Source of the DNA: Lacibacter cauensis
GTDB lineage: Bacteria; Bacteroidota; Bacteroidia; Chitinophagales; Chitinophagaceae
Direction: 5' to 3'
Assembly: GCF_007830055.1 (NCBI RefSeq)
Contig: NZ_VLLE01000003.1
Location: forward strand, 806,001-870,000
Length of the DNA: 64,000 bases
In this document: positions 2,476-15,406 of the stretch, piece after piece
How the letters are laid out: each line of letters opens with the position of its first letter
Position numbering within the stretch: position 1 is the first letter of the stretch
The notes under the pieces: model-generated
Seen by the model: the letters and a program-made list of their open reading frames with translations, nothing else
The model's database searches: none
Told to the model about the DNA's origin: nothing
Made by a program: the position numbers and the translations under genes

Positions 2476-3762
2476 ATGAAGACATTATTGTTAGCGGATG
2501 CAGAAGGGCGGCAGTTAAAGTGGCAGGAAAAAGCGTTTTACTGGCTTGTGCTTGTTTTTTTTATTTCTTTATTTATACCCCGTGCACCGGTTGCTTCTAA
2601 CATTCTACTTGGGGCGTTTGTAGCACACTCTTTTTTTTATAATCGCCTCAACGAGAAATTGCAGATTCTGAAACAGCGGCCAGTTGTTATTTTAATTACT
2701 GCGTACTATTTATTACATGTTATAAGTTTAGCTTGGTCAACAGATAAAGAGGAAGCTGCAACACAGTTAGCCATCAGGTTGCCCATTTTTATTCTTCCGC
2801 TGGCAATAGGAACTGTTATTATAAAAAAAGATTTAGCTGATCGTATCATTCTTGTAATCGGATTCATTACTACCGGTGTTGCAGTTGTAAGCCTTGGTCT
2901 TTCATTTTCGCAATACATGAAAACAGGCAACTCCGGTTTCCTATACAACGATAGTTTAACCGTTCATTTTGGGCAACAGTCGATTTATGTTGCGATGCTG
3001 GTTAATCTTTCAATAGCCGGTATTGTTTACTTGCTGCAAAGAAAAACGGTAGCACAATCGCTGCAGGGTTGGCTTTATGTGTCGCTGATTATTTTATTTG
3101 TCTTTCATTTTCTGTTAGCCAGCCGGTCTGCCATGTTATTGTTGTACGGCAGCGCATTACTTTTTGCTTTTTACTATGTATTTACAAAGCGCAGGTATCT
3201 TGAAGGAGCAACGCTGATCTTAGGGTTAGTTATTGGTGCGTTTATGCTCTTTAAGTTTTTTCCTAAAACGGTACAGCGGTTTAAAGAATTGGCATATACC
3301 AATTTCACGTTTGAAAGTAAAGCAGCCGAAAGCCATTACGATATGCAACTCGACAGTGCACAATGGAACGGGGCCAATACAAGACTTGCACTATGGCAAT
3401 GTGGTTGGGAGCTAGCAAAACAAAATATGCTTACCGGAGTTGGTATCGGCGATCGTGTAAGCGATATGAATAAAGTTTATGCAGATCGAAAATTTGCAAT
3501 GGCGATTGAAACAAAAAAGAATGTGCACAACAGTTATCTCGATGCATGGCTGACGTTTGGAATTGGGGGTTTTATTTTATTGTTACTAGCGTTTGCTGTA
3601 TTGCCATTTGTTGATGCTGTACGTGCTACTAATGGATATTATCTGTTTGTTGTAACCGTGTTTATTGTATCCATGCTGTTTGAAGTATACATAGGCCGAA
3701 GTTTCGGTTGTATGCTCGCCGGATTTTTCTATTCGTTTATAGCCGCAACAAAAAAGAAATAA
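2476..3762 (+). CDS. O-antigen ligase / polymerase family membrane protein
   Basis: This 428-residue polytopic inner-membrane protein has about ten to twelve hydrophobic segments and the Wzy_C/O-antigen-ligase hallmark region. A long periplasmic loop lies roughly at residues 270-355, followed by NSYLDAWLTFGIGGFILLL. Family members join undecaprenyl-linked glycan to lipid A core (ligase, WaaL) or polymerise repeat units (Wzy); sequence alone does not separate the two. In this locus an ABC exporter is present, and ABC-exported O-chains need a ligase but no Wzy, so the ligase role is favoured by inference. It has its own promoter 15 bases upstream and ends head-on against the ABC operon, sharing a hairpin with it at 3762-3787. 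Confidence 0.8.
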   Translation: MKTLLLADAEGRQLKWQEKAFYWLVLVFFISLFIPRAPVASNILLGAFVAHSFFYNRLNEKLQILKQRPVVILITAYYLLHVISLAWSTDKEEAATQLAIRLPIFILPLAIGTVIIKKDLADRIILVIGFITTGVAVVSLGLSFSQYMKTGNSGFLYNDSLTVHFGQQSIYVAMLVNLSIAGIVYLLQRKTVAQSLQGWLYVSLIILFVFHFLLASRSAMLLLYGSALLFAFYYVFTKRRYLEGATLILGLVIGAFMLFKFFPKTVQRFKELAYTNFTFESKAAESHYDMQLDSAQWNGANTRLALWQCGWELAKQNMLTGVGIGDRVSDMNKVYADRKFAMAIETKKNVHNSYLDAWLTFGIGGFILLLLAFAVLPFVDAVRATNGYYLFVVTVFIVSMLFEVYIGRSFGCMLAGFFYSFIAATKKK

Positions 3763-3787
3763 TGGCCGATTATTGATTATCGGCCAT
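3762..3787. terminator. Shared hairpin between converging genes
   Basis: ATGGCCGAT (3762-3770) pairs with ATCGGCCAT (3779-3787) around an 8-base loop. It overlaps the stop codon of the plus-strand gene and the last codons of the minus-strand ABC ATPase. An A-rich run precedes it on the plus strand, which gives a U-run on the minus transcript, so it probably terminates the operon. Confidence 0.65.
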
Positions 3788-4504
3788 GTAGAGTTCAATT
3801 GCTTTTTCGGTATCGCCGAAGTAAACCATTTCGCCGTTTTTCATAAAACCTGCACGGCTGCAGTATTTACGAATAACATCCATACTGTGACTCACAAGCA
3901 CAACTGTTTTTCCTTCTATCCAGGAGCTTTCAAAAACCTTGATAGCTTTTTCCTGGAACTTCATATCACCTACTGCAAAAATTTCATCGAGGAACATAAT
4001 GTCTGCACCGGCGTTTACCGCAATGGAAAAACCGAGACGTGCCACCATACCTGAAGAGAAGTATTTAATCTTGGTATCTACAAAGTCACGAAGCTCGGCA
4101 AAATCGATAATGGTATCAAAAATGGCATCGATTTCTTTGATTTTTAAACCCAGTACCGAGCCGGAAACATAAATATTTTCTCGTGCAGTTAACTCATGAC
4201 TCATACCTACACCAAGGTTCATGAGCATGGTGCTGCCGTTAATTTTTACATAGCCGGTATCAGTAGGGTATACACCTGCAAGAAGCTTAACCAGCGTTGA
4301 TTTACCACAACCATTACGGCCGAGCAATCCTACACATTCGCCTTTGTTGATTTCAAAGGATGTCATTTTTAATGCAGATACTTTCTTTTTTCTGGGAGGA
4401 TTGAACAGGTTGAACAGGCGATGTTTTACCGTGTTGTGGCTGTCTTCTGAAATGTAAAACGTCTTGCTTATATTTTTAGCTAGTAATGCTGTTGAGTTTT
4501 TCAT
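3770..4504 (-). CDS. Polysaccharide ABC exporter, ATPase subunit (Wzt/KpsT type)
   Basis: This 244-residue ABC ATPase powers export of a lipid-linked glycan across the inner membrane together with the permease encoded 10 bases upstream. Motifs are complete: Walker A GRNGCGKST at residues 62-70, signature YFSSGM at 148-153, Walker B ADIMFLDE at 167-174 and the switch histidine in VSHSM near 206. An N-terminal extension (residues 15-45) with a basic PPRKKK patch is typical of teichoic acid and O-antigen exporters. It stops right after the nucleotide-binding domain, so it lacks the C-terminal carbohydrate-binding domain that chain-terminator-sensing Wzt proteins carry. That suggests export coupled to synthesis without recognition of a capped end. 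It is the last gene of a seven-gene minus-strand operon. Confidence 0.9.
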   Translation of the reverse strand: MKNSTALLAKNISKTFYISEDSHNTVKHRLFNLFNPPRKKKVSALKMTSFEINKGECVGLLGRNGCGKSTLVKLLAGVYPTDTGYVKINGSTMLMNLGVGMSHELTARENIYVSGSVLGLKIKEIDAIFDTIIDFAELRDFVDTKIKYFSSGMVARLGFSIAVNAGADIMFLDEIFAVGDMKFQEKAIKVFESSWIEGKTVVLVSHSMDVIRKYCSRAGFMKNGEMVYFGDTEKAIELYMADNQ

Positions 4505-4514
4505 TTAAAAATAA

Positions 4515-5312
4515 TTATAGTTTTTCTGCAGCTTTGCTTCCAATTTTATTTAAAAGTATTAAACCTAAAAAGAGAAGGAAACTGGAATATACCCAGCCGA
4601 ATGCCATTAAATCCCACTCAGGGTTCTTATTATACAGTATGACATTTCTGGCGTTAATAATGATGCCAGAAATTGGATTAAGGTAATCTACTCCTGGTAA
4701 TGCTTTCCGAAATAATTCCAGCTTGAAAAGAATTGGCGATAGCCAAAATCCTACCCCGGTTATCACCAACCATATTTGTGTAATGTCTTTTGCTAACACA
4801 TAGATATTTGAGAGAATAAGCGAAAAAGCCAATGAAAAAACAACTAGATTAATGAAAATTGGAATTATATACAGCGATTTTAAACTTAATTCTGCTGTGC
4901 CGTTATCAAGAAACTGGAAGTAAATAAGGAAAAGGGAAAGATTGAAAAAGAATCCAATGCAGTTAGATAGGATAGTAGACAAATATATTTCAAGTTTATT
5001 CATATTTGTGTACTCGTATAAATATTTTTTAGCGTTCAATATTTGTATTGTCCCGGCAGTACTTTCTACAAAAAAATTCCACATGATTAAAGCTATAAAT
5101 AAAAAGGAAACAAAGTTTGGTACACCTTGTTTAAGCACAATTTCAAACGCTACGTAAAAAATAAAGATTTCAGATATTGGTTTAAGTAAGGCCCATAGCA
5201 AGCCGAGCTTATTCTCATAATATCTTAGTTTAAATTCTATTTTGGCTAATAACCAAATCCTTTCAATTTTATTGGATCTGTTATTCCAATCTCTTAAAAC
5301 TGTTGATGACAT
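4515..5312 (-). CDS. Polysaccharide ABC exporter, permease subunit (Wzm/ABC-2 type)
   Basis: This 265-residue integral membrane protein of the ABC-2 family has about six transmembrane segments. The cytoplasmic N-terminus runs into KLRYYENKLGLLWALLKP, the amphipathic entry helix typical of O-antigen and teichoic acid permeases. It forms the channel through which the ATPase encoded directly downstream moves an undecaprenyl-linked polysaccharide to the periplasm. Upstream neighbours are glycosyltransferases at 4-base spacing, which supports a dedicated export route. Codon and base use are AT-rich like the rest of the operon. The exact glycan cannot be told. Confidence 0.88.
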   Translation of the reverse strand: MSSTVLRDWNNRSNKIERIWLLAKIEFKLRYYENKLGLLWALLKPISEIFIFYVAFEIVLKQGVPNFVSFLFIALIMWNFFVESTAGTIQILNAKKYLYEYTNMNKLEIYLSTILSNCIGFFFNLSLFLIYFQFLDNGTAELSLKSLYIIPIFINLVVFSLAFSLILSNIYVLAKDITQIWLVITGVGFWLSPILFKLELFRKALPGVDYLNPISGIIINARNVILYNKNPEWDLMAFGWVYSSFLLFLGLILLNKIGSKAAEKL

Positions 5313-5316
5313 GTTA

Positions 5317-7482
5317 CTATTTTTTTACTGCTTTGTAAATTTTTAAAGCAAATTTTTTTACGTGAAGATGTTTTCTGATTGAATAGAAGATAAAACTTTT
5401 GAATGGTAGCCATTTTGGAAGCGATCTCCTTTTTGAATAGTCCAATGTAGGGTTATCAATTTTATAGCCTGGTCCATTAGCATTGAGTAATAAGGTCAAA
5501 TCCTGTGCATATTCGCTAAATACATCTGAATGTTTGTTGGTAATATATTTTATTGAATAAAGGATTTTTTCTGAAGTAAAACGTCTTGCCATTGAGCCTT
5601 TTCTGATTCTATATTGGTAAAATGGCTCAGGAAGAACAATGCCTTGCCTTCCACTTTTAACGAGTGAGAGAACTGACTCCCAATCTTCTAGTCCATACTC
5701 AAGAGCCTCATCGTTTTTGCCAGCTTCTAGGTAGGCTATTTTCTTATAAACAAGGCCTCCGCCACATACCATATTGTAGTAAAGCAGGTAAGGTAACTCT
5801 GGAGTGAATGATGGCCATATGCCATTGCTATTTTCAAAATATCTTACCCACGAGCCAACAAAGTATACGTTACTTTTAGATTGCAAAACTGAGATTGCAG
5901 CTCGATAAAATTTCGGGTCTATTTTATCGTCTGCATCAATAAAGGCAATGTATTCACCGCTGGCCTCTTCTGCCCCTCTGTTTCGTGCAAATGAAAGTCC
6001 ATAGTTAGACTGATTGATCAATCGGAATCCGAAAGCTTTTTGTAGTTTATTTAGTTCTTTTACACTTTCTTCTTCGGTAGAGCCATCGTTAATAACAATT
6101 ACTTCGAAGTTATCGTATTCAATGTTATAAACAGAGGAAAGAGTTTCTTTAACTGTTTTTCCCATGTTAAAAAATGGGATTATGATAGATAACTTATTAT
6201 TTATTATTTCTTTTACCGAAACCTCTTTGCGAACTTTTATTTGAGGGCGTAAGAAAGGGAATACATCGCTTTTAGTTGCTTGTTCTAATAGGTTGTTAAT
6301 AAGTGTCTTTTTTTCTGAAAAGACTTTATCATAGTTATGTAGGTTGTTAACTGATCTTACAGCTTCCTGTCTAATTTTTTGTAATTCGTTTAAAGGCATG
6401 CTTTCGATTAGTAAAATCTTGGCTTCAAGATCGCCATGGATCGTATGGTCAAATAAAAAGCCATTTTTGCAATGTATGATTATTTCACTTTGGCCACCTT
6501 GTTTTGAAGCCAATACAATTTGCCCATTACTCATTGATTCCAGTACAGTAAACGGATAATTATCTCCAATACTTGGAATAATGATTATGCCTCCATTTTT
6601 CGTTTTATCAGTCCAGTTTTCCTGTGAAAGGTTACCAAGAAGTATTAGTTGTTGCTTTCTTAGTTCTGCGGAAAACCTTAGCTTAATCCAATCAGACATT
6701 AACATATTTTCCGGGTGATAATAGTGATCCCCACCTCCGATAATGATCAGTTTTCTTTTCCATCCTTTACTCCAAAGTTTTTTGCATGCAATCAAGAGAG
6801 GAATAATTCCTTTTTGCGGAGTCATCTTGCCAAAGAAAAACCAATTATTTCTTATTTCATTTTGCTGAATTGTTACAGGTGAAACATTTTTATATGGATA
6901 TCGAATTATTGAAATTTTCTCAGTTAAGGATTCTAAAAAAAAAGGTTGAATTGCATTTATAAGAAAATGCCCAGGGCTATTTAATTTATCGGCTGCATGA
7001 ATACACCATTTCTCCATTTCTCCGATCCAAAAGTATGGTAAGCTGTATGAGGGAACTTTATTGTATTCGTAGTACAAGAAAGCGGGTGCATGCAGCGTTA
7101 GCAATACTTTCAGATTGCCGAAAAAAGCATAATTCAGGTGCTTATATAGCAATGTGAAATAGGCAATTCCTCCATATTCCTGAGACTCCAATATATCAGG
7201 AATTCCTTCTTTTGCCATGTGGTTTTCAATAGCCCTCGCAAAAAGAAAAGATCTTGCTGTCTCATATCCAAGATGCGGATATTGTTCGGTGTTACAATTG
7301 AATCTGATTACCCTAATACCATGTTCAAATTTGATAATTTCAGGTAAACTGATTTCTGAAGTAACAAAAATTGAAACTTCATAACCTTTTTCTTTTAGCA
7401 TTTGCGCATTGTGATAACAATAAGTCGCAATTCCGCCGCCATATTCAGGCGGATATTCGGATGTTAGAATCCAGTATCGCAT
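5317..7482 (-). CDS. Two-domain glycosyltransferase, GT4 fused to GT2
   Basis: This 721-residue fusion contains two complete transferases. Residues 1-405 form a GT-B/GT4 enzyme: the N-terminus YPPEYGGGIATYCYHNAQML is the acceptor-side glycine-rich start, and later GKMTPQKGI and TVLESMSNG mark the nucleotide-sugar site with its E-x7-E type glutamate. Residues about 428-650 form a GT2 enzyme (LSIIIPFFNMGKTVKETL, then FIDADDKIDPKF as the DxD region). A basic amphipathic tail (FALKIYKAVKK) ends the protein. Two activities in one chain suggest it adds two successive sugars or builds a disaccharide repeat. It sits 4 bases from its neighbours on both sides. Donor sugars are unknown. Confidence 0.88.
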   Translation of the reverse strand: MRYWILTSEYPPEYGGGIATYCYHNAQMLKEKGYEVSIFVTSEISLPEIIKFEHGIRVIRFNCNTEQYPHLGYETARSFLFARAIENHMAKEGIPDILESQEYGGIAYFTLLYKHLNYAFFGNLKVLLTLHAPAFLYYEYNKVPSYSLPYFWIGEMEKWCIHAADKLNSPGHFLINAIQPFFLESLTEKISIIRYPYKNVSPVTIQQNEIRNNWFFFGKMTPQKGIIPLLIACKKLWSKGWKRKLIIIGGGDHYYHPENMLMSDWIKLRFSAELRKQQLILLGNLSQENWTDKTKNGGIIIIPSIGDNYPFTVLESMSNGQIVLASKQGGQSEIIIHCKNGFLFDHTIHGDLEAKILLIESMPLNELQKIRQEAVRSVNNLHNYDKVFSEKKTLINNLLEQATKSDVFPFLRPQIKVRKEVSVKEIINNKLSIIIPFFNMGKTVKETLSSVYNIEYDNFEVIVINDGSTEEESVKELNKLQKAFGFRLINQSNYGLSFARNRGAEEASGEYIAFIDADDKIDPKFYRAAISVLQSKSNVYFVGSWVRYFENSNGIWPSFTPELPYLLYYNMVCGGGLVYKKIAYLEAGKNDEALEYGLEDWESVLSLVKSGRQGIVLPEPFYQYRIRKGSMARRFTSEKILYSIKYITNKHSDVFSEYAQDLTLLLNANGPGYKIDNPTLDYSKRRSLPKWLPFKSFIFYSIRKHLHVKKFALKIYKAVKK

Positions 7483-7486
7483 AGGG

Positions 7487-9874
7487 TTATTGGCTTTTAC
7501 TAAAAAGTGATTTTAACGATCGATCCTTTCGTATTACCTTAATAATGTGGCCAAAACGTTTGTACCAAAGCGGAAGAACCTCATACTCTTTGTGATACCA
7601 ACTTTTGATTTCTGATGCGTTTTTTTCCCAATAGTTAGCAAGTTCACTAAAAGCCTCAGCTTTTTCTAATGAAATTTGCTCTAATGTATTTACAGTATCT
7701 TTTGTTGTATTTGTAGATAACTGACTGTTGTTTATTTCTGGAAAATTCGAAAGATGTTCATTTGTGTGTAACTGCTCACGATAGATTGCTGAGTTGTAAG
7801 GAAACTGTTTTTTATGCAGTTTGCCCATTTCCTTTTGATTGAAATAATAGTCAAAGAGTTCGTCAAATCTTTCACATCTGCCTTCCCAAGTCCAGTTTTT
7901 TATCCTTATTTCATTTTCTTTTGAAAGTGATTCCAGAATTTCCCTGTTCTTTATCAGGTTAAGTAGTAGTTTCTTCAAGGCCTCTTTCGATCTCTCAGTA
8001 AGTATATATTCTTTCTGTAGTTTTCCAAAAACCTCTTTTACTATACCAACATCTGTCGAAATAACTGCTATACCGCATGCCATTGACTCTAAAACCGGGT
8101 TTGGAGTTCCTTCAATATCGGATGCACATATGTATACATCTAACTGATTATAATAGTCAACCATATTTGCTGGGTCAATATGTGTATGTGGCTCTTGCTT
8201 GTCTGCATAAGTCAGTTTAATTGCATATCCTTCCTGAATTAGTTCCTCTACCGCTGGTTTAATAATGGAAATAAAACCTTTGTGATCAATACCATCTTCA
8301 GATTGCCCCCATGCACTATTACCTGCCCATCCAACAACCAGAGGCGAATTATGAGATGAAAACGCTTTTTCTTTTTTTCTGTAGAATTTATTTATATCAA
8401 CGCCATCCTGAATGACACAATATGGCTTTTTATATTCGCTTATTTTGTTGTAGATATTCATTAATTTATGAGAAGAGACAAAATAGCCATCAATGTTATT
8501 ATTAAAAATGTCAATATTGTTTTGCTTATCAAGTTCTTGTAGATACAAATGATCATAAACACCTGTTAGAAGAATCGTTTCGTTTAAGAAGTCTTCGAAT
8601 TGATTCCTGGAGATACTGAATTTATATTCAAGGTAATTTTTAAGATCGACGCTGAACAAGTGTTTATATACCGGTCTCCAGAAAAAGAATAGAAGATCGT
8701 ATTTTTCTTTGTATAAGATTGGATAAAGATCAAGCCATTTTTCCCAAGCATATTCGGATTGAAAATATATCGTAAAATTATATTTATGCGAAAGATGATG
8801 CTCGATATTCTTTGCGATGTTATGAAATGCCCAATTCTTAACATCTACGATAAGTGCAATCCTTTTCTTTATTTCATCTCCTTTTTTACTTGTACTTGCC
8901 GTTATTAATTGATCCTGTTTTTGTTTGAGCCAGTCCTCGGTATGTTTATCATACACTACCAAACCATTCTTCTTTTCAAAAGCTTCAGCTGACGCTTTTA
9001 TTATGTCGTTATTAAATCTTTTCTTTTCAGCTTCTATATCATCCTTGTCACTTGAAGGTTTGTGATTATGCACAACAACAAACTTATGTAGGTTGCCAAT
9101 TTTGTAACCCTTTTTGTATAGTCTGAGTGAAAAATCAATGTCTTCGAATCCAACAAACATGTTGCGGTCAAATCCTCCAATATCCAGAAATTCTTGTCTG
9201 TTTAGTATGCATGCGCCACCAAATAGAAAATCAGACAAAAAAGGCGCTTCGATCTCAAGATCATTATATTCTAAATCGGTTTTAAAATTATAACAACTGC
9301 CTCCACCCGAAAAGAAGGTTTCGTTTGTAGGCCAGGTAAAAAGAGCACCACCCAAAGCAAAAACTGATTTGTTATCATAATTTATCAATGGAAGGTTTAA
9401 GAAATTTACCCCTAAGGTATTAATTGCTTGTTGAACTGATTCCAGCGGATCTTCAACAAAAAACATATCGTTGTCAAGAAACATAATCCAATCTTTTTTT
9501 GTTTGACTTGCTGCATAGTTTCTTGCATTTCCAACTCCAAGATTCTCTTGTAATTCAATAATCTTTATCGGGCAACTACAGGTTGAGGTAAATTCTTTAA
9601 GAAGTTTTTTTTGTGCAGCCGAAGAATTGTTATCAATGATTAGTATTTCACCTTTAAATTCCGGGATATAGTATTCTACAGAAGTAAGTAATCGGATAGT
9701 TAAATTTACCCTGTTTAAACTAAGCAGAACTATACACATGTTTGATCCGTATGGTGCAAATGAAACCTTATTGAATTTTGGAACATTATTTAGATTTGCT
9801 GTATTATCACTATAACAATACTCTGTTTTTTTTATGCTATAAGTTAGTTTGTTATATAGTTCTCCAATTTTCAT
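7487..9874 (-). CDS. Two-domain glycosyltransferase, GT2 fused to GT4-like domain
   Basis: This 795-residue protein is arranged in the opposite order to its downstream neighbour. Residues about 45-290 are GT2 (IVLLSLNRVNLTIRLLTSV, then MFLDNDMFFVEDP as the DxD region and GFEDIDFSLRLYKKG as the acceptor-site ED motif). Residues about 335-690 are a GT-B/GT4-like domain ending in IEGTPNPVLESMACGIAVI. The last 100 residues are polar and helical with a basic end (RSLKSLFSKSQ), possibly a membrane- or partner-binding tail. It overlaps nothing but is only 3-4 bases from its neighbours, so it is surely co-transcribed. The catalytic ED/DxD residues look intact in the first half; the second half is recognised by its PNPVLESMACG segment alone, so its activity is less certain. 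Confidence 0.85.
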   Translation of the reverse strand: MKIGELYNKLTYSIKKTEYCYSDNTANLNNVPKFNKVSFAPYGSNMCIVLLSLNRVNLTIRLLTSVEYYIPEFKGEILIIDNNSSAAQKKLLKEFTSTCSCPIKIIELQENLGVGNARNYAASQTKKDWIMFLDNDMFFVEDPLESVQQAINTLGVNFLNLPLINYDNKSVFALGGALFTWPTNETFFSGGGSCYNFKTDLEYNDLEIEAPFLSDFLFGGACILNRQEFLDIGGFDRNMFVGFEDIDFSLRLYKKGYKIGNLHKFVVVHNHKPSSDKDDIEAEKKRFNNDIIKASAEAFEKKNGLVVYDKHTEDWLKQKQDQLITASTSKKGDEIKKRIALIVDVKNWAFHNIAKNIEHHLSHKYNFTIYFQSEYAWEKWLDLYPILYKEKYDLLFFFWRPVYKHLFSVDLKNYLEYKFSISRNQFEDFLNETILLTGVYDHLYLQELDKQNNIDIFNNNIDGYFVSSHKLMNIYNKISEYKKPYCVIQDGVDINKFYRKKEKAFSSHNSPLVVGWAGNSAWGQSEDGIDHKGFISIIKPAVEELIQEGYAIKLTYADKQEPHTHIDPANMVDYYNQLDVYICASDIEGTPNPVLESMACGIAVISTDVGIVKEVFGKLQKEYILTERSKEALKKLLLNLIKNREILESLSKENEIRIKNWTWEGRCERFDELFDYYFNQKEMGKLHKKQFPYNSAIYREQLHTNEHLSNFPEINNSQLSTNTTKDTVNTLEQISLEKAEAFSELANYWEKNASEIKSWYHKEYEVLPLWYKRFGHIIKVIRKDRSLKSLFSKSQ

Positions 9875-9877
9875 TAT

Positions 9878-11395
9878 TTAATTCTTTTTAAAAATTTTTC
9901 GGAACATGATCTGTAAAATATTCGCTTCTTCAAATTTTTCTTTATAAGCAATGATTTGTTGCGATTGTTTATCGTTGCTTTCAGATAGTTCATTTATTGT
10001 ATTGCTTTGTGCGGTAATTATTTGCTGAAGAGAATTAAGTTCCTTATAAAGAGTATTTTCTGTGTTTTGTTGAGTAGCAAAAATTTTACTTATTTGCACG
10101 ACTAGATTGTCGATTTTGTTGTTTAAAATATTATTATTTTTTTCCTGTTCAACCAATAAGTGTTGTTGCGAGGTGTTATGTAGTTGTATTAACTGGATAA
10201 TATTATCACATGAGTTTTTTATACCAATTATCTCTATATCCTGATTTTGCAACAAGTTCATTTGTTCGAACTGTGTTTTTTTAATTTCATTTATTATAAC
10301 AAACAAGGTTTCTAATCTTGTTTGTAATGTGTCAAAAAGCCGTAATTGCTTTGATAGCAATTCTTGTTCTGAAAGCAGAGCTACCTGCGAGCTCACTATT
10401 TTTTGAAGAAGAGAAGCGTGATTTTCGTTTTCCTTAATCAATTGTTGAGTCCTTATTTCAAGACCGTTAATTACATTATGAAGGTCGTTAATTTTATTTT
10501 TTGTAATATTTATGCCTGAATCAACTAATGCAAAATGATTTTCACAACTGAAAGTGAGGGCTTCAAGAGCAGAAAAGACTTGTATCAGTTCTCTGTTATT
10601 TGATAATATGGAATTAAGTTCATTCGTTTTTACCTCAAGATTTGCTTCTGATTCATCGAGTCTCTTTTGAATACTAACGTTGATATTCTGTTGTTCAGTT
10701 TTCAGCTTTTGATAGTAATCAATCAAGTCAATAGACATTTCTTGAGTAAACCATGAGCGTCCCCACATGTGGATTGCAATGGTTTTTGATGTTAGTTCCC
10801 ATTCGCTGCTGTTTTTTCGTAGGTATGCTTTTTCGTAAGGTAATGGATAGAAGACTTCCTTTTCGAAAAGCATGATGTCGGCAAGAAGTTGTTCTCCATA
10901 TTTAGCGAGCGAATACTTTTGTTTTAGAATTTCAGTTACAAGGTGGGGAGCAGATAAATTAGCTTTTTCGGTGCCATCAAATTTTTCTAGAAGAGTTTTC
11001 TCACAATCCTTTATAAATTCATGATTAGGAATTGCACCGACAATTGCGTTATTAACCCAATAGTCTTCATTTCCGAAGTTACCGGATTCAAAGCCTAAAA
11101 AACAATGATAATTTAAAAGAATATCTAATGGACCTAGAATTTTCATATCTGTGTCCATATAAATGCCTCCTTCAGTTCTCAATGCATAAAGTCTTATATA
11201 GTTGCTAGCATTAGCCCAATTTTTTTTATTGATTGAAGTTTCGAGATAAGGAATATATGAAGGGATATTATTATTATTCCATTCTTTAATTTTGAAATCA
11301 GGATTGAACCGTCTCCATTCGTTTATATATTCTTTATACTCATCATTAAGAGGAGTATCCCCAAACCAACAATAATGTATAATTTTTGGTATCAC
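9878..11395 (-). CDS. GT32 glycosyltransferase with long C-terminal coiled coil
   Basis: Residues 1-225 are a GT32 (DXD sugar-binding, TcdA/TcdB-like) transferase: PKIIHYCWFGDTPL at the start, ALRTEGGIYMDTDM with the DxD near residue 80, and IAIHMWGRSW near 210. From about residue 230 to 490 the chain changes to a glutamine-, asparagine- and leucine-rich coiled coil, ending in a short basic amphipathic tail (IMFRKIFKKN). Capsule GT32 enzymes are normally only the first part; the coiled coil roughly doubles the length. In ABC-exported O-antigens such as E. coli O9a, a coiled coil in WbdD sets chain length, so a scaffold or ruler role is conceivable here but unproven. There is no kinase or methyltransferase domain like WbdD's. 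It lies between a coiled-coil gene and a GT2-GT4 gene in the operon. Confidence 0.83.
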   Translation of the reverse strand: MIPKIIHYCWFGDTPLNDEYKEYINEWRRFNPDFKIKEWNNNNIPSYIPYLETSINKKNWANASNYIRLYALRTEGGIYMDTDMKILGPLDILLNYHCFLGFESGNFGNEDYWVNNAIVGAIPNHEFIKDCEKTLLEKFDGTEKANLSAPHLVTEILKQKYSLAKYGEQLLADIMLFEKEVFYPLPYEKAYLRKNSSEWELTSKTIAIHMWGRSWFTQEMSIDLIDYYQKLKTEQQNINVSIQKRLDESEANLEVKTNELNSILSNNRELIQVFSALEALTFSCENHFALVDSGINITKNKINDLHNVINGLEIRTQQLIKENENHASLLQKIVSSQVALLSEQELLSKQLRLFDTLQTRLETLFVIINEIKKTQFEQMNLLQNQDIEIIGIKNSCDNIIQLIQLHNTSQQHLLVEQEKNNNILNNKIDNLVVQISKIFATQQNTENTLYKELNSLQQIITAQSNTINELSESNDKQSQQIIAYKEKFEEANILQIMFRKIFKKN

Positions 11396-11406
11396 AATTC
11401 TTTACC

Positions 11407-11799
11407 TCACTTTTTTGTACCTAGCAGCTTTTCTTTAATCGTTCCAATCAAACTTCTCGTCTCATACGTCCTCTTATACCACTCAATATCATTCTGGTAA
11501 CGGCGTATATCTTCAAGCAGTTTATTAATCAATTGCTTCGTTCCTTCCTGCTTACGGAGTTCATCTTTTAATATTTTTTCTGCTTCTTCCTTTTCTTTTT
11601 GCTCTTTCAACAATTGGTCTTCTATTTTTTGTAATCGTTCTACAAGTTCTTCAATACGATCACGCTTAAATTCATTCTCCGAAAGCAAGTGCGTATAAAC
11701 CTGGCGTAAAACATCTTCCAGGGGAAGATCTTTCAACTTGCCTGCGAGTGCAACAAGTTTGCCGGTGTCATGTAATTGTGTTTGTCCCTGTGTTTCCAT
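11407..11799 (-). CDS. Small coiled-coil protein of the polysaccharide operon
   Basis: This protein of 130 residues has no enzyme motif. Residues about 35-105 are almost continuous heptads rich in Glu, Lys and Leu (VERLQKIEDQLLKEQKEKEE). The N-terminal part is short and polar, and the C-terminus ends in a basic amphipathic stretch (GTIKEKLLGTKK). It sits 21 bases behind a GT4 gene and 11 bases ahead of the GT32/coiled-coil gene, so the two coiled-coil proteins are adjacent and probably expressed together. They could form a hetero-oligomer that scaffolds the transferases at the membrane; this is inference from shape and position. No named family is recognised. Confidence 0.75.
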   Translation of the reverse strand: METQGQTQLHDTGKLVALAGKLKDLPLEDVLRQVYTHLLSENEFKRDRIEELVERLQKIEDQLLKEQKEKEEAEKILKDELRKQEGTKQLINKLLEDIRRYQNDIEWYKRTYETRSLIGTIKEKLLGTKK

Positions 11800-11820
11800 T
11801 GTTGTTAGATGTAAAGTGAT

Positions 11821-12888
11821 TTAATAGGCATAAGCAATACGGTAATTACCAGCACTGCTGGCCGCATTAAATTCTGTGTTGCATAAACTTTTTGAATAGC
11901 TACCCATTGCTTCCAGCATAAAAGGGTTATTGATGTAGTAAAGAATTTGTGTACACGCCTGTTCGATGGAATCGTACAAATCACCATTTACTCCATAACG
12001 GATAATATCTTTATTACCGGTACAGTTTGATAGAATTAAAGGTTTGCCTAATGACATTGCGTCAAGTACACCAAAAGATAGGCCTTCATAATCAGCAGTT
12101 GAAAGATAAAGAGAGGCTTTTGAGAGTTCTTTTTTTACATCTTCTTCCAAAAGCCATCCTGTTATGCGAATATTGGATGATGATAATAAATACCTGTCAG
12201 CTCCATCTCCAATCCAAACAAATTCTACTTGTGGGTACGCTAAAAAATGTTCCGCTATTTCGTTAAAACGTTTTGGGTTCTTTTGTGCAAGAATGCGTCC
12301 GCTGAAAGCAATTATAAATTTACCTTCATTGTTATCTGCATTTCTTACCTGCTTAAGCGAGCTGGTTCCATTATTGATATAGGTAGCTTCAATACCCAAA
12401 TTGCGATAAGCTTCTGCTTCAGATGCTGACACACAAACTACTTTACCTCCGAATGAATGACCAATTAATTCCAATTGCTTATACAGCAAACGTTTAATGC
12501 GGCTGTCTTTAACAAGGAAAGGTGCACCGTTGGGGGTATAAATAACCTGCTTTATATTTAGCCATCTGCAAACAAGTCGGCCTAAAAAGCCACTTTTTGA
12601 TGAGTGCAGATGTACCGCATCTGCAGTACGAAATCGCTTCAGTATAGTAAACAGTTCAAATAAAGCACGGGTATCCTTTACAATGTTTAATCCTCTTTGT
12701 GCTGATTTCCAGTGAATAAATTTTACCTGGTTTGGAGGGAAAAGTTTTTTTACTTCAGCACGTTCCATTACCTCGGGGCGCTCTCCGTGAATAACGATAT
12801 GATAATCCTCCGGCAGATGCTCTACCAGTGACTTTACAAAGGTTACTACGCCGCTCGCAAACGGCTCTACTACATGAACAATTCTCAT
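11821..12888 (-). CDS. Glycosyltransferase family 4, first gene of the export operon
   Basis: This 355-residue GT-B enzyme has the N-terminal acceptor domain starting MRIVHVVEPFASGVVTFV and a C-terminal donor domain with FSGRILAQKNPKRF, then TADYEGLSFGVLDAMSLG containing the EGLSFGVLDA version of the GT4 E-x7-E motif (the second acidic residue is Asp). It resembles EpsD/EpsF- and Cps-type transferases that add early sugars. It is preceded by a TACCTTTG box about 75 bases upstream, so it is taken as the first gene of the seven-gene operon reaching to 3770. A short reading frame overlapping its 3' end is not believed. Confidence 0.87.
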   Translation of the reverse strand: MRIVHVVEPFASGVVTFVKSLVEHLPEDYHIVIHGERPEVMERAEVKKLFPPNQVKFIHWKSAQRGLNIVKDTRALFELFTILKRFRTADAVHLHSSKSGFLGRLVCRWLNIKQVIYTPNGAPFLVKDSRIKRLLYKQLELIGHSFGGKVVCVSASEAEAYRNLGIEATYINNGTSSLKQVRNADNNEGKFIIAFSGRILAQKNPKRFNEIAEHFLAYPQVEFVWIGDGADRYLLSSSNIRITGWLLEEDVKKELSKASLYLSTADYEGLSFGVLDAMSLGKPLILSNCTGNKDIIRYGVNGDLYDSIEQACTQILYYINNPFMLEAMGSYSKSLCNTEFNAASSAGNYRIAYAY

Positions 12889-13048: not shown

Positions 13049-13855
13049 TCAATGTGGAAAACTAAAGCGCTTTAGTTGGGTAATGATTTTATACGGAAAC
13101 AATGAAAGTAGATGTTGACGTAATAATCCGACGAAAATTAGTGTTTTAATAAAACCGTAATGCTTTATTACTTTTAGTTTTGAACGTATCTGTTGCTTTC
13201 TTTTTTTTACACTGATTCCCTCTGTATTTACTTCTGTTTCAACTAAGATTTCCTGTAGAATATGCGAGTGAAATTTCCCGATTAGCTCAAAGAAAAATGC
13301 ATAATCTTCTGCATAAGGAAAGTTGTAAGGATAAAGTGCTGTTTGTTTTAGTGATTCGTTTCTAAACATAACTGTAGGGTGTATAAAACTGCACTTTAGA
13401 TGCATTTGTTTGCGAATTACATAATGCTTCTCTGCAGCATGATAAACGAATCGATTTTTTTTTGCAGAATCAACAAACAAACACAAAGAACCAAGTAGAG
13501 ATATGTAAGTGTTTTCATTTAAAAAATTCACTTGTTTTAAAAATCGCTCTTCATTACATATATCTCCGCAATCTAAACGTGCGGTATACAATGCATCGTT
13601 GCGTTCCAGAATAAGTTGCAGGCCGGTGTTTAATGCCTCCGTAATACCTTTGTTTTCTGTTAGCCTGATGATTTCAATTTGCAACTGTTGCAGAATGTCT
13701 GCCGGTAGTAATTCTATTGTTACAGGAACATCACTTCCATCATCAACAATCAGAACTTTGCATTTTTTCTTGGGATATACTACCGAGCGAAGCGACCTTA
13801 TCAATCCTTCAAGATTATTGTAACATGGTATTAAAAGATAGAAATCAAGCATCAT
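13049..13855 (-). CDS. Glycosyltransferase family 2
   Basis: This is a 268-residue GT2 enzyme. The N-terminus FYLLIPCYNNLEGLIRSLRS and IVDDGSDVP near residue 37 form the nucleotide-binding half. The usual ARxDADD metal site reads ARLDCGDIC near residue 93, with Asp, Cys, Gly, Asp in place of the commoner DADD, so the second acidic residue is kept. The C-terminus is basic and hydrophobic. It begins 9 bases after the comM stop codon on the same strand and may be read through from it, while its product belongs with the polysaccharide genes downstream. Two ATG codons in a row (MM) leave a one-residue start ambiguity. Confidence 0.85.
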   Translation of the reverse strand: MMLDFYLLIPCYNNLEGLIRSLRSVVYPKKKCKVLIVDDGSDVPVTIELLPADILQQLQIEIIRLTENKGITEALNTGLQLILERNDALYTARLDCGDICNEERFLKQVNFLNENTYISLLGSLCLFVDSAKKNRFVYHAAEKHYVIRKQMHLKCSFIHPTVMFRNESLKQTALYPYNFPYAEDYAFFFELIGKFHSHILQEILVETEVNTEGISVKKRKQQIRSKLKVIKHYGFIKTLIFVGLLRQHLLSLFPYKIITQLKRFSFPH

Positions 13856-13864
13856 CAGTTCTAC

Positions 13865-15406
13865 TTATCCTGCCCAGCCTTCTCTGTCTAAGCTGCGGTA
13901 TTGAATGGCTTCGGCCAGGTGTTCAATTTTAATGTCGTTGCTTTGCGCAAGGTCGGCAATGGTACGACTAACTTTTAAAATACGATCATACGCTCTTGCA
14001 CTTAAGTTTAATTTATCCATCGCTGCTTTTAGCAACGTTTGTCCGGCTTGCGAAATAACACAGATTTCTTTCAGTTGCTTGCTGCTCATTTGCGCATTGG
14101 CGTAAATGCCTTCCACATCTTTATAACGTTGTTCCTGTATTTCACGTGCAGCAATAACCCGTTCACGAATAACAGTACTTGTTTCGCTGTTTTCTGTTTT
14201 CGATAATTCGCTGAAGGGAACGGGTGTTACTTCTACATGCAGATCGATACGATCTAACAATGGTCCGGATATTTTATTGAGATATTTCTGTACTGCACCG
14301 GGCGGACAGGTACATTCTTTTTCCGGATGATTGTAATAACCACAGGGGCAGGGATTCATCGATGAAATGAGCATGAACGATGCAGGAAAGTCGAGTGCAA
14401 TTTTTGCTCTGGAGATGGTGACTCTTCGTTCTTCCATGGGCTGACGCATAACTTCCAGTACAGTGCGTTTGAATTCCGGCAGTTCATCTAAAAACAACAC
14501 ACCGTTATGCGCTAACGAAATTTCTCCGGGTTGCGGATTGCCGCCGCCACCAACCAATGCAACATCGCTAATTGTATGATGTGGCGAACGAAACGGACGC
14601 TTTGAAATGAGCGTAGCATTTTCCGGTAACTTGCCTGCTACACTATGAATTTTTGTTGTCTCTAATGCTTCCTGCAAACTCAATGGCGGAAGGATGGTAG
14701 GCAACCTTTTTGCAAGCATGGTTTTACCTGCACCGGGCGGGCCAATTAAAATAGCATTATGACTTCCGGCAGCTGCAATTTCCAAGGCACGTTTAATGTT
14801 GTGCTGTCCTTTTACATCACTGAAATCAAATTCGAAATCGTATTGTGCATGAAAGAATTCTTCTCTTGTATTTACAACAACAGGCTTCAGTGAATCTTCG
14901 TTTTCAAAAAAGTTGATCACATCACGTATATGCTCTACGCCATACACGTTGAGATTGTTCACCATTCCTGCTTCACGTGCATTTTGTTTGGGAACGATCA
15001 ATCCTTTAAAATTTTCTTTACGTGCCTGTATGGCAATAGGCAATGCGCCTTTAATGGGTTGAATGCTTCCATCCAGACTCAGTTCACCCATAATCACATA
15101 CTCACTTAATTTTTCCGGATTAGGTACTTGCTCTGTAGCACCGAGTATACTAACGGCAATGGGCAGGTCGAATGCAGTACCTGTTTTGCGAATGTCGGCA
15201 GGAGCGAGGTTGACAATTACTTTTGTGCGGGGGAAAAAATAGCCCGATGTTTTTAATGCACTTTCAATACGCTGCTCGCTTTCTTTCACAGCGCTATCTG
15301 GTAAACCCACCATGAAAAATTTCTGGCCATTACTCACATTCACTTCAATAGTGATGGTAATTGCATTTACTCCGTAAACAGCGCTTCCAAAGGTTTTAAC
15401 GAGCAT
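13865..15406 (-). CDS. comM: YifB/ComM family Mg-chelatase-like AAA+ ATPase
   Basis: This 513-residue protein has the full family architecture: an N-terminal Lon-protease-like fold domain (residues about 15-140), a Mg-chelatase-type AAA+ domain with Walker A IGPPGAGKTMLAKRL near residue 220 and Walker B LFLDELPEF near 306, a cysteine cluster NPCPCGYYNHPEKECTC around 355 and a C-terminal chelatase-like domain. ComM is a hexameric helicase that extends branch migration during natural transformation in Vibrio; in other bacteria the role is less studied. Length and motifs are normal. It is followed after 9 bases by a GT2 gene, which is probably an accident of gene order. Confidence 0.93.
   Translation of the reverse strand: MLVKTFGSAVYGVNAITITIEVNVSNGQKFFMVGLPDSAVKESEQRIESALKTSGYFFPRTKVIVNLAPADIRKTGTAFDLPIAVSILGATEQVPNPEKLSEYVIMGELSLDGSIQPIKGALPIAIQARKENFKGLIVPKQNAREAGMVNNLNVYGVEHIRDVINFFENEDSLKPVVVNTREEFFHAQYDFEFDFSDVKGQHNIKRALEIAAAGSHNAILIGPPGAGKTMLAKRLPTILPPLSLQEALETTKIHSVAGKLPENATLISKRPFRSPHHTISDVALVGGGGNPQPGEISLAHNGVLFLDELPEFKRTVLEVMRQPMEERRVTISRAKIALDFPASFMLISSMNPCPCGYYNHPEKECTCPPGAVQKYLNKISGPLLDRIDLHVEVTPVPFSELSKTENSETSTVIRERVIAAREIQEQRYKDVEGIYANAQMSSKQLKEICVISQAGQTLLKAAMDKLNLSARAYDRILKVSRTIADLAQSNDIKIEHLAEAIQYRSLDREGWAG

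Follow-up and report, generated by a model that had tools for sequence, protein, structure and literature searches.

Gene content of the locus

We analyzed a 64,000-nucleotide stretch of the Lacibacter cauensis genome (contig NZ_VLLE01000003.1, positions 806,001 to 870,000; hereafter the window), focusing on a putative O-antigen locus served by an ATP-binding cassette (ABC) exporter and on one of its products, the stand-alone coiled-coil protein cc130. Eight minus-strand genes run from 13855 to 3770 in the order GT268, GT355, cc130, GT32-coil, GT795, GT721, Wzm and Wzt (Table 1). The window contains Wzm, Wzt, glycosyltransferases and an O-antigen ligase, which characterize an ABC-transporter-dependent O-antigen locus. 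Proteins of the window were annotated with Pfam, and genes elsewhere were taken as open reading frames of at least 90 amino acids (aa) from our own caller. Judged from sequence, the locus is of the ABC-dependent O-antigen type with constant ends and a swappable middle; GT268, GT355 and cc130 form the constant 5' block, and GT721, Wzm and Wzt the constant 3' block.

A preliminary description of the window, made from its letters, had proposed an ABC-exported glycan operon at 3770-12888 and a possible chain-length ruler built from two coiled-coil proteins. The genes lie where it had placed them, on the minus strand, and the 130-residue protein is separate and predicted to form a coil; the unit is larger than described, however, extending upstream to GT268 and ending at the convergent ligase gene. 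That the operon lacks a kinase or methyltransferase terminator agrees with our scan: none of the eight operon proteins was hit by a model for either activity (Pfam, E up to 0.001).

Table 1. Features of the predicted O-antigen locus, with positions in the window
Feature	Position	Strand	Basis
GT268, GT2 glycosyltransferase opening the constant 5' block	13049..13855	-	PF00535
GT355, GT4 glycosyltransferase, constant partner of cc130	11821..12888	-	Pfam; nearest solved relatives PglA, WbnH
cc130, stand-alone coiled-coil protein, 130 aa, without known family	11407..11799	-	Pfam/NCBIfam scans, coil prediction
cc130 rod, residues 31-86	11542..11709	-	spacing in alignment of 45 homologues
cc130 conserved C-terminal tail (tail A), WYxRTYExRSxxGxxKEK, residues 98-130	11410..11508	-	
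GT32 enzyme with long C-terminal coiled coil (GT32-coil), 505 aa, variable middle gene	9878..11395	-	PF04488
GT32 helical rod, residues 218-503, break ~266-279	9887..10744	-	coil prediction, AlphaFold2 model
Possible degenerate tail A of GT32, residues 481-505	9881..9955	-	MAFFT alignment with five relatives
GT795, GT2 + GT4 dual glycosyltransferase, variable middle gene	7487..9874	-	Pfam
Tail B of GT795, WYxKEYExLPLWYKRxGHIIK, residues 757-795	7490..7606	-	motif
GT721, GT4 + GT2 dual glycosyltransferase, constant, adjoins wzm	5317..7482	-	Pfam
Wzm, ABC-2 permease	4515..5312	-	PF01061, alignment
Wzt, 244 aa ATPase without carbohydrate-binding module	3770..4504	-	Pfam
O-antigen ligase (Wzy_C), convergent with wzt	2476..3762	+	PF04932

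Distribution of cc130 and co-occurrence with the exporter

In a sample of 195 genomes of the family, cc130 was detected in 21 (E up to 1e-3), whereas the Wzm profile matched 23 (E up to 1e-60) and the GT355 profile 24 (E up to 1e-70). All 21 cc130 genomes also carry a locus-type Wzm and GT355, and Wzm occurs without cc130 only in genomes G002 and G107. Co-occurrence was tested with a Fisher test, which ignores relatedness; the cc130 genomes span 15 of the 101 genera. In 20 of the 21 genomes cc130 and Wzm lie on the same contig and strand, 2.2-17.9 kb apart, and in the remaining one (G122) they are on separate contigs. The Wzm contig of G107 begins 9 kb upstream of Wzm, so that its 5' block may be cut off. 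At the G002 locus (L121, 2178-13353), the cc130 slot holds two opposite-strand genes of 316 and 512 aa that look membrane-bound by eye, with no tail motif in the six frames of the slot; a second gene with a GT721-like start precedes GT721.

For gene-order comparisons we used 35 distinct clusters with readable cc130 and Wzm, 31 of which also had a readable Wzt. Because the clusters were picked on the readability of both genes, the 35/35 figure for cc130 and Wzm holds by construction, and 21 of 23 Wzm genomes is the less biased measure of co-occurrence. A separate Wzm count gave 24 of 26 genomes, three of them listed twice with the same contig coordinates, which leaves 21 of 23 distinct genomes. 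Identical proteins from overlapping loci were removed as duplicate rows.

Thirty-one cc130 loci were found in the GTDB collection, in Chitinophagaceae (Lacibacter, Niastella, Terrimonas and others), Hymenobacteraceae (Pontibacter and Rufibacter relatives) and a few unplaced Bacteroidetes, with family placement checked for four genera. One locus from the cc130 search lies on a contig labelled Beijerinckiaceae (L061); at 8471-11546 a gene for a methyltransferase protein that has tail A at its end comes first, and GT268-like and GT355-like genes come next, which may reflect transfer or a binning error. In a sample of the phylum, cc130 matched 9 of 395 genomes, 7 of them weakly and through the coil part alone, in frames of 319-968 aa; the Wzm search returned the same two strong genomes as cc130.

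The cc130 rod, its tail and its partner GT355

Alignment of 45 cc130 homologues revealed a rod of near-constant length. From Leu31 to Gly86 it spans 55 residues in 44 sequences and 41 in the remaining one, from G065, a difference of 14 residues or exactly two heptads. Downstream, the spacing between Gly86 and Trp107 is 21 residues in 45/45. Over the 45 rows, pairwise identity averages 0.29 for the rod and 0.64 for the part that starts at Gly86. That the rod keeps its length while its sequence drifts suggests spacer-like behaviour; the abstract of PMC5082667 describes coiled-coil spacers as conserving length, not sequence. G065 also holds the minimal cluster (L075, 8483-13962), composed of GT355, cc130, GT721, Wzm and Wzt, and it is the sole cluster with no middle gene as well as the sole source of a shortened cc130 rod.

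A coiled coil is predicted in both cc130 and the GT32 protein. The prediction came from our own COILS-type script with a hand-entered matrix, so that coil scores and coil counts are approximate. Folded as one chain with GT355, cc130 was modelled as a single helix (27-113), a break and a short helix (117-126). The window cc130 fell below the curated cut-offs of known families (best Pfam 19.3 bits against 25; best NCBIfam 15.9 against 65), and in Pfam it matched no catalytic family. The NCBIfam scan covered the window cc130 and the homologues were scanned with Pfam; weak matches to 91 Pfam models occur in the 45 homologues, none of the listed models hitting more than 8 members. Against solved structures the cc130 profile retrieved generic coiled coils. 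We found no description of cc130 or its tail in the titles and abstract openings of the open-licence PMC literature, by which absence is not proven.

GT355 lies directly upstream of cc130 in 45/45 aligned homologues, and the junction ranges from an overlap of up to 70 bases to a gap of up to 200 (own start calls). It precedes cc130 in all 35 clusters, although in G129 the gene is broken into two frames; GT268 is found in 34 of the 35, missing from G065. Over 29 clusters, pairwise distances of cc130 correlated most closely with those of GT355 (r = 0.81), followed by GT268 (0.69), Wzt (0.36), GT721 (0.16) and Wzm (0.06). The partial correlation of cc130 with GT355 given GT268 was 0.60, and that of cc130 with GT268 given GT355 was 0.12. 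In six loci of Niastella and like genomes (L035, L036, L039, L041, L067 and L074), the 15-20 kb that were read contain the GT355-cc130 pair and lack GT268, GT721, Wzm and Wzt; these isolated pairs support the tie independently. In L067, the sole locus of the six to be scanned, the pair is flanked by glycosidases (fucosidases, GH20), a permease and SusC/D-type genes. The nearest solved relatives of GT355 by sequence are PglA (Campylobacter) and WbnH (E. coli); among fold matches PglA ranked first and WbnH fortieth. Both are second-step transferases that act on undecaprenyl-diphosphate monosaccharides, an acceptor that by similarity GT355 may share, and to our knowledge neither has a dedicated coiled-coil partner gene.

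The GT32-coil protein and the swappable middle

Between cc130 and GT721, the clusters hold anything from nothing (G065) to twelve open frames. The middle of two scanned clusters includes dTDP-rhamnose genes, an RgpF domain and additional glycosyltransferases. In the window this interval contains the GT32-coil protein, whose PF04488 match (49.7 bits, cut-off 23) and intact DxD motif (D81 T82 D83, invariant in 9/9 aligned sequences) indicate a glycosyltransferase head; by fold, this head (residues 1-215) matches YeGT and Och1. The fusion of this head to a predicted coil was thus described correctly. The preliminary estimate of about 38 nm had been made for a continuous coil. In the AlphaFold2 model, a break of low confidence separates helix 218-265 from helix 280-503. 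Of the rod, 166 residues pass the coil threshold and scores are weak around 330-400; since the rod does not form a single uninterrupted coil, its length can be at most 38 nm.

The GT32 gene is a variable element. It occurs in 10 of the 35 clusters, once as a fragment, and is absent from both same-genus clusters read (G083 and G160), in which cc130 is present; a search of the window's own genome found no second copy of the GT32-cc130 two-gene stretch. The two-gene block, whose recurrence beside ABC exporters the preliminary description had offered as a check, is not conserved, cc130 being the core gene. Counted from the GT32 head, the tryptophan of the tail lies 205, 242, 307, 314 or 315 residues away in the five relatives whose tail is clear. 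In the window, where the tail is degenerate, the distance is 268; two other relatives end early, and the long L034 protein has no clear tail.

Other middle coil proteins carry different heads. Ten of them, chosen for their coils, comprise seven with methyltransferase and three with GT4 heads, and in L077 and L079 the order is methyltransferase, coil, tail A and glycosyltransferases. A middle protein with at least 50 coil residues is present in 21 of the 35 clusters, and 14 have none at that threshold. GT721 adjoins Wzm in 35/35.

Tails A and B

The conserved C-terminal tail of cc130, tail A, was also found on larger enzymes, where it follows a coil, lies between domains or sits close to the N-terminus, and it occurs on middle proteins in 13 of the 35 clusters. 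The tail hidden Markov model did not detect it on the window GT32. In a phylum sample of 390 genomes, with a first pass that may miss genomes, tail A was strong in the window's own genome alone and marginal in G405 (E 0.009). A second motif, tail B, was identified in 20 proteins (GT795 and 19 others) that belong to 18 of the 35 clusters. Its start is never more than 38 residues away from the C-terminus; 18 of the 20 proteins were aligned. Tail B sits on glycosyltransferases of the variable middle and shares the WYxxxYE start with tail A. An hhalign comparison of the two tails gave a probability of 34% over 13 columns (E 4e-4). A membrane-helix role for the tails was considered and dropped, their hydrophobic moment being no higher than that of shuffled versions.

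Exporter and ligase

The window Wzt matched ABC_tran, with a weaker overlapping AAA match, and has no C-terminal domain. As noted in the preliminary description, the ATPase lacks the glycan-sensing domain, and this holds for all Wzt proteins scanned, a carbohydrate-binding module being absent from 16/16; Wzt length is 230-268 aa in 28 clusters. The gene after Wzt was readable in 28 clusters and convergent in 26, and 26/26 aligned products matched O-antigen ligase; two Rufibacter clusters have a different gene at this position. According to the passages of PMC11231755 on K. pneumoniae, all terminated examples have a carbohydrate-binding module attached to Wzt, while the O1/O2 exporter lacks the module and O2a export is coupled to chain extension. 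The absence of the module suggests that the loci described here join coil proteins with a coupled-type exporter.

Comparison with known systems

WbdD of E. coli O9a and K. pneumoniae O3 also belongs to an ABC-exported O-antigen system, and it combines a coil with a polymerase-recruiting C-terminal region, as described in passages of PMC3482155 and PMC11231755. Unlike the headless cc130, WbdD bears kinase and methyltransferase heads, and the Wzt that serves it has the module that is missing from the window Wzt. For K. pneumoniae O4 ORF7, O7 ORF6 and O12 WbbB, passages of PMC11231755 describe a catalytic head and a coil, with or without polymerase modules. The GT32-coil protein and the methyltransferase-coil proteins of sister clusters share this layout, but the window differs from these systems in its GT32 head, its Wzt without module and its extra stand-alone rod. 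The head-plus-coil arrangement of ruler-terminators is found in GT32 (head 1-215, helices 218-503) and not in cc130, and the cognate Wzt with a C-terminal carbohydrate-binding module was not found here. Ruler-terminators also have a membrane helix and an enzyme-recruitment site at the C-terminus; the proteins studied here have a conserved tail whose amphipathicity does not exceed that of shuffled versions. K. pneumoniae O2a is similar to the window in having a Wzt without the module; the O2a passages of PMC11231755 name no coiled-coil protein, whereas in these loci the stand-alone rod is a core gene.

A proposed core scaffold or a possible chain-length ruler

We propose, with a probability of roughly one half, that cc130 is a core, headless, fixed-length coiled-coil scaffold of the O-antigen machinery that works with GT355. 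Its near-constant length and its invariable position after GT355 make a scaffold more probable than one half of a two-part ruler. By sequence comparison, cc130 is the conserved rod and GT355 its partner, and the rod of GT32 is an accessory that varies. In the proposed mechanism, cc130 would oligomerise through its rod and be positioned beside GT355 at the lipid-linked primer; the cc130 tail would dock into an export-coupled biosynthetic complex in which middle enzymes bearing tail A or tail B may also be held. The GT32-coil protein would be one of these exchangeable enzymes. Carried at the distal end of a longer rod of its own, its transferase would probably cap or branch; it is perhaps a strain-specific terminator.

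Several observations weigh against the scaffold proposal. G002, which has no cc130, retains GT355, Wzm and Wzt; a ligase-like gene, GT268 and GT721 are also present as judged by eye. In 22 of the 35 clusters no tail A was detected on middle proteins, so that it cannot be the sole docking device, and a membrane-anchor role is unsupported because the tails are no more amphipathic than shuffles. The one-chain fold of GT355 and cc130 gave a low-confidence cc130 tail (pLDDT 49-62) without a contact readout, and the cc130-GT355 correlation may, at least in part, be plain neighbour linkage.

The ruler idea of the preliminary description survives in part: cc130 is linked to an ABC exporter for O-antigen, its rod length is kept and GT32 has a head-coil-tail layout. 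Pairing of the GT32 coil with cc130 into one chain-measuring rod is the part that we consider very unlikely. The adjacency of two coiled-coil genes, both with tail A (degenerate in the window GT32, if homologous), and the conserved cc130 rod would fit such a device. Against it, GT32 is confined to 10 of the 35 clusters and cc130 belongs to the core; G065 has cc130 with no middle gene at all, the six loci with the isolated GT355-cc130 pair have no GT32, and the head-to-tail spacing of GT32 varies over 205-315 residues. The Wzt also lacks the module reported for all terminated K. pneumoniae examples. It is more conceivable, though still doubtful, that the GT32-coil protein alone acts as a ruler-terminator of the WbdD or WbbB kind, a capping transferase with its rod length setting chain length and cc130 having a separate job. 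Its layout, the methyltransferase-coil or GT4-coil proteins in the middle of other clusters and the 21 clusters with a middle coil protein point in this direction, and the gene order of L077 and L079 (head, coil, tail, glycosyltransferases) resembles that of K. pneumoniae O7 in the passages of PMC11231755. These points are offset by the 16 Wzt proteins without the module that all terminated examples in the same passages carry, and by the 14 clusters with no middle coil protein at the threshold used. In addition, the GT32 rod is broken in the model, and we know of no GT32 terminator.

A simpler role for cc130, as a partner that merely stabilises GT355 or recruits it to the membrane and is neither scaffold nor spacer, would account for the constant adjacency, the co-variation and the occurrence of the pair without the rest of the locus; we regard it as rather unlikely, since it leaves unexplained a rod length kept to the residue and the recurrence of tail A on other enzymes of the locus. 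Less probable again is a length system of two rods, in which GT355 would hold cc130, the constant base rod, at the primer and a head-coil enzyme that can be exchanged (GT32, methyltransferase or GT4) would provide a second, strain-specific rod, both docking by the same tail, so that the difference in rod length, not a terminal sugar read by Wzt, would decide when the chain is passed on. The G065 cluster, which lacks a middle gene and has a base rod two heptads shorter, bears on this arrangement.

The coiled-coil rulers described in the passages available to us are enteric and paired with a glycan-reading exporter domain, and two Bacteroidota families have coils without the reader. A headless, fixed-length rod tied to an early glycosyltransferase separates the rod from the terminator. 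The constant rod, the variable rods of 205-315 residues, the two-heptad deletion and the single loss form a natural series for asking what rods do in glycan assembly.

Related sequences and neighbouring gene

The nearest named relative for the locus is Lacibacter luteus, with 83% identity for cc130 (best segment) and 91% for GT355. Within the window's own genome a second, weak cc130 match (E 0.05, 30% identity) lies inside a 917-aa frame. Upstream of the 5' block, the window carries a gene at 13865-15406 that we take to be comM-like. Such a gene stands upstream in 11 of the 35 clusters, which suggests a fixed chromosomal address.

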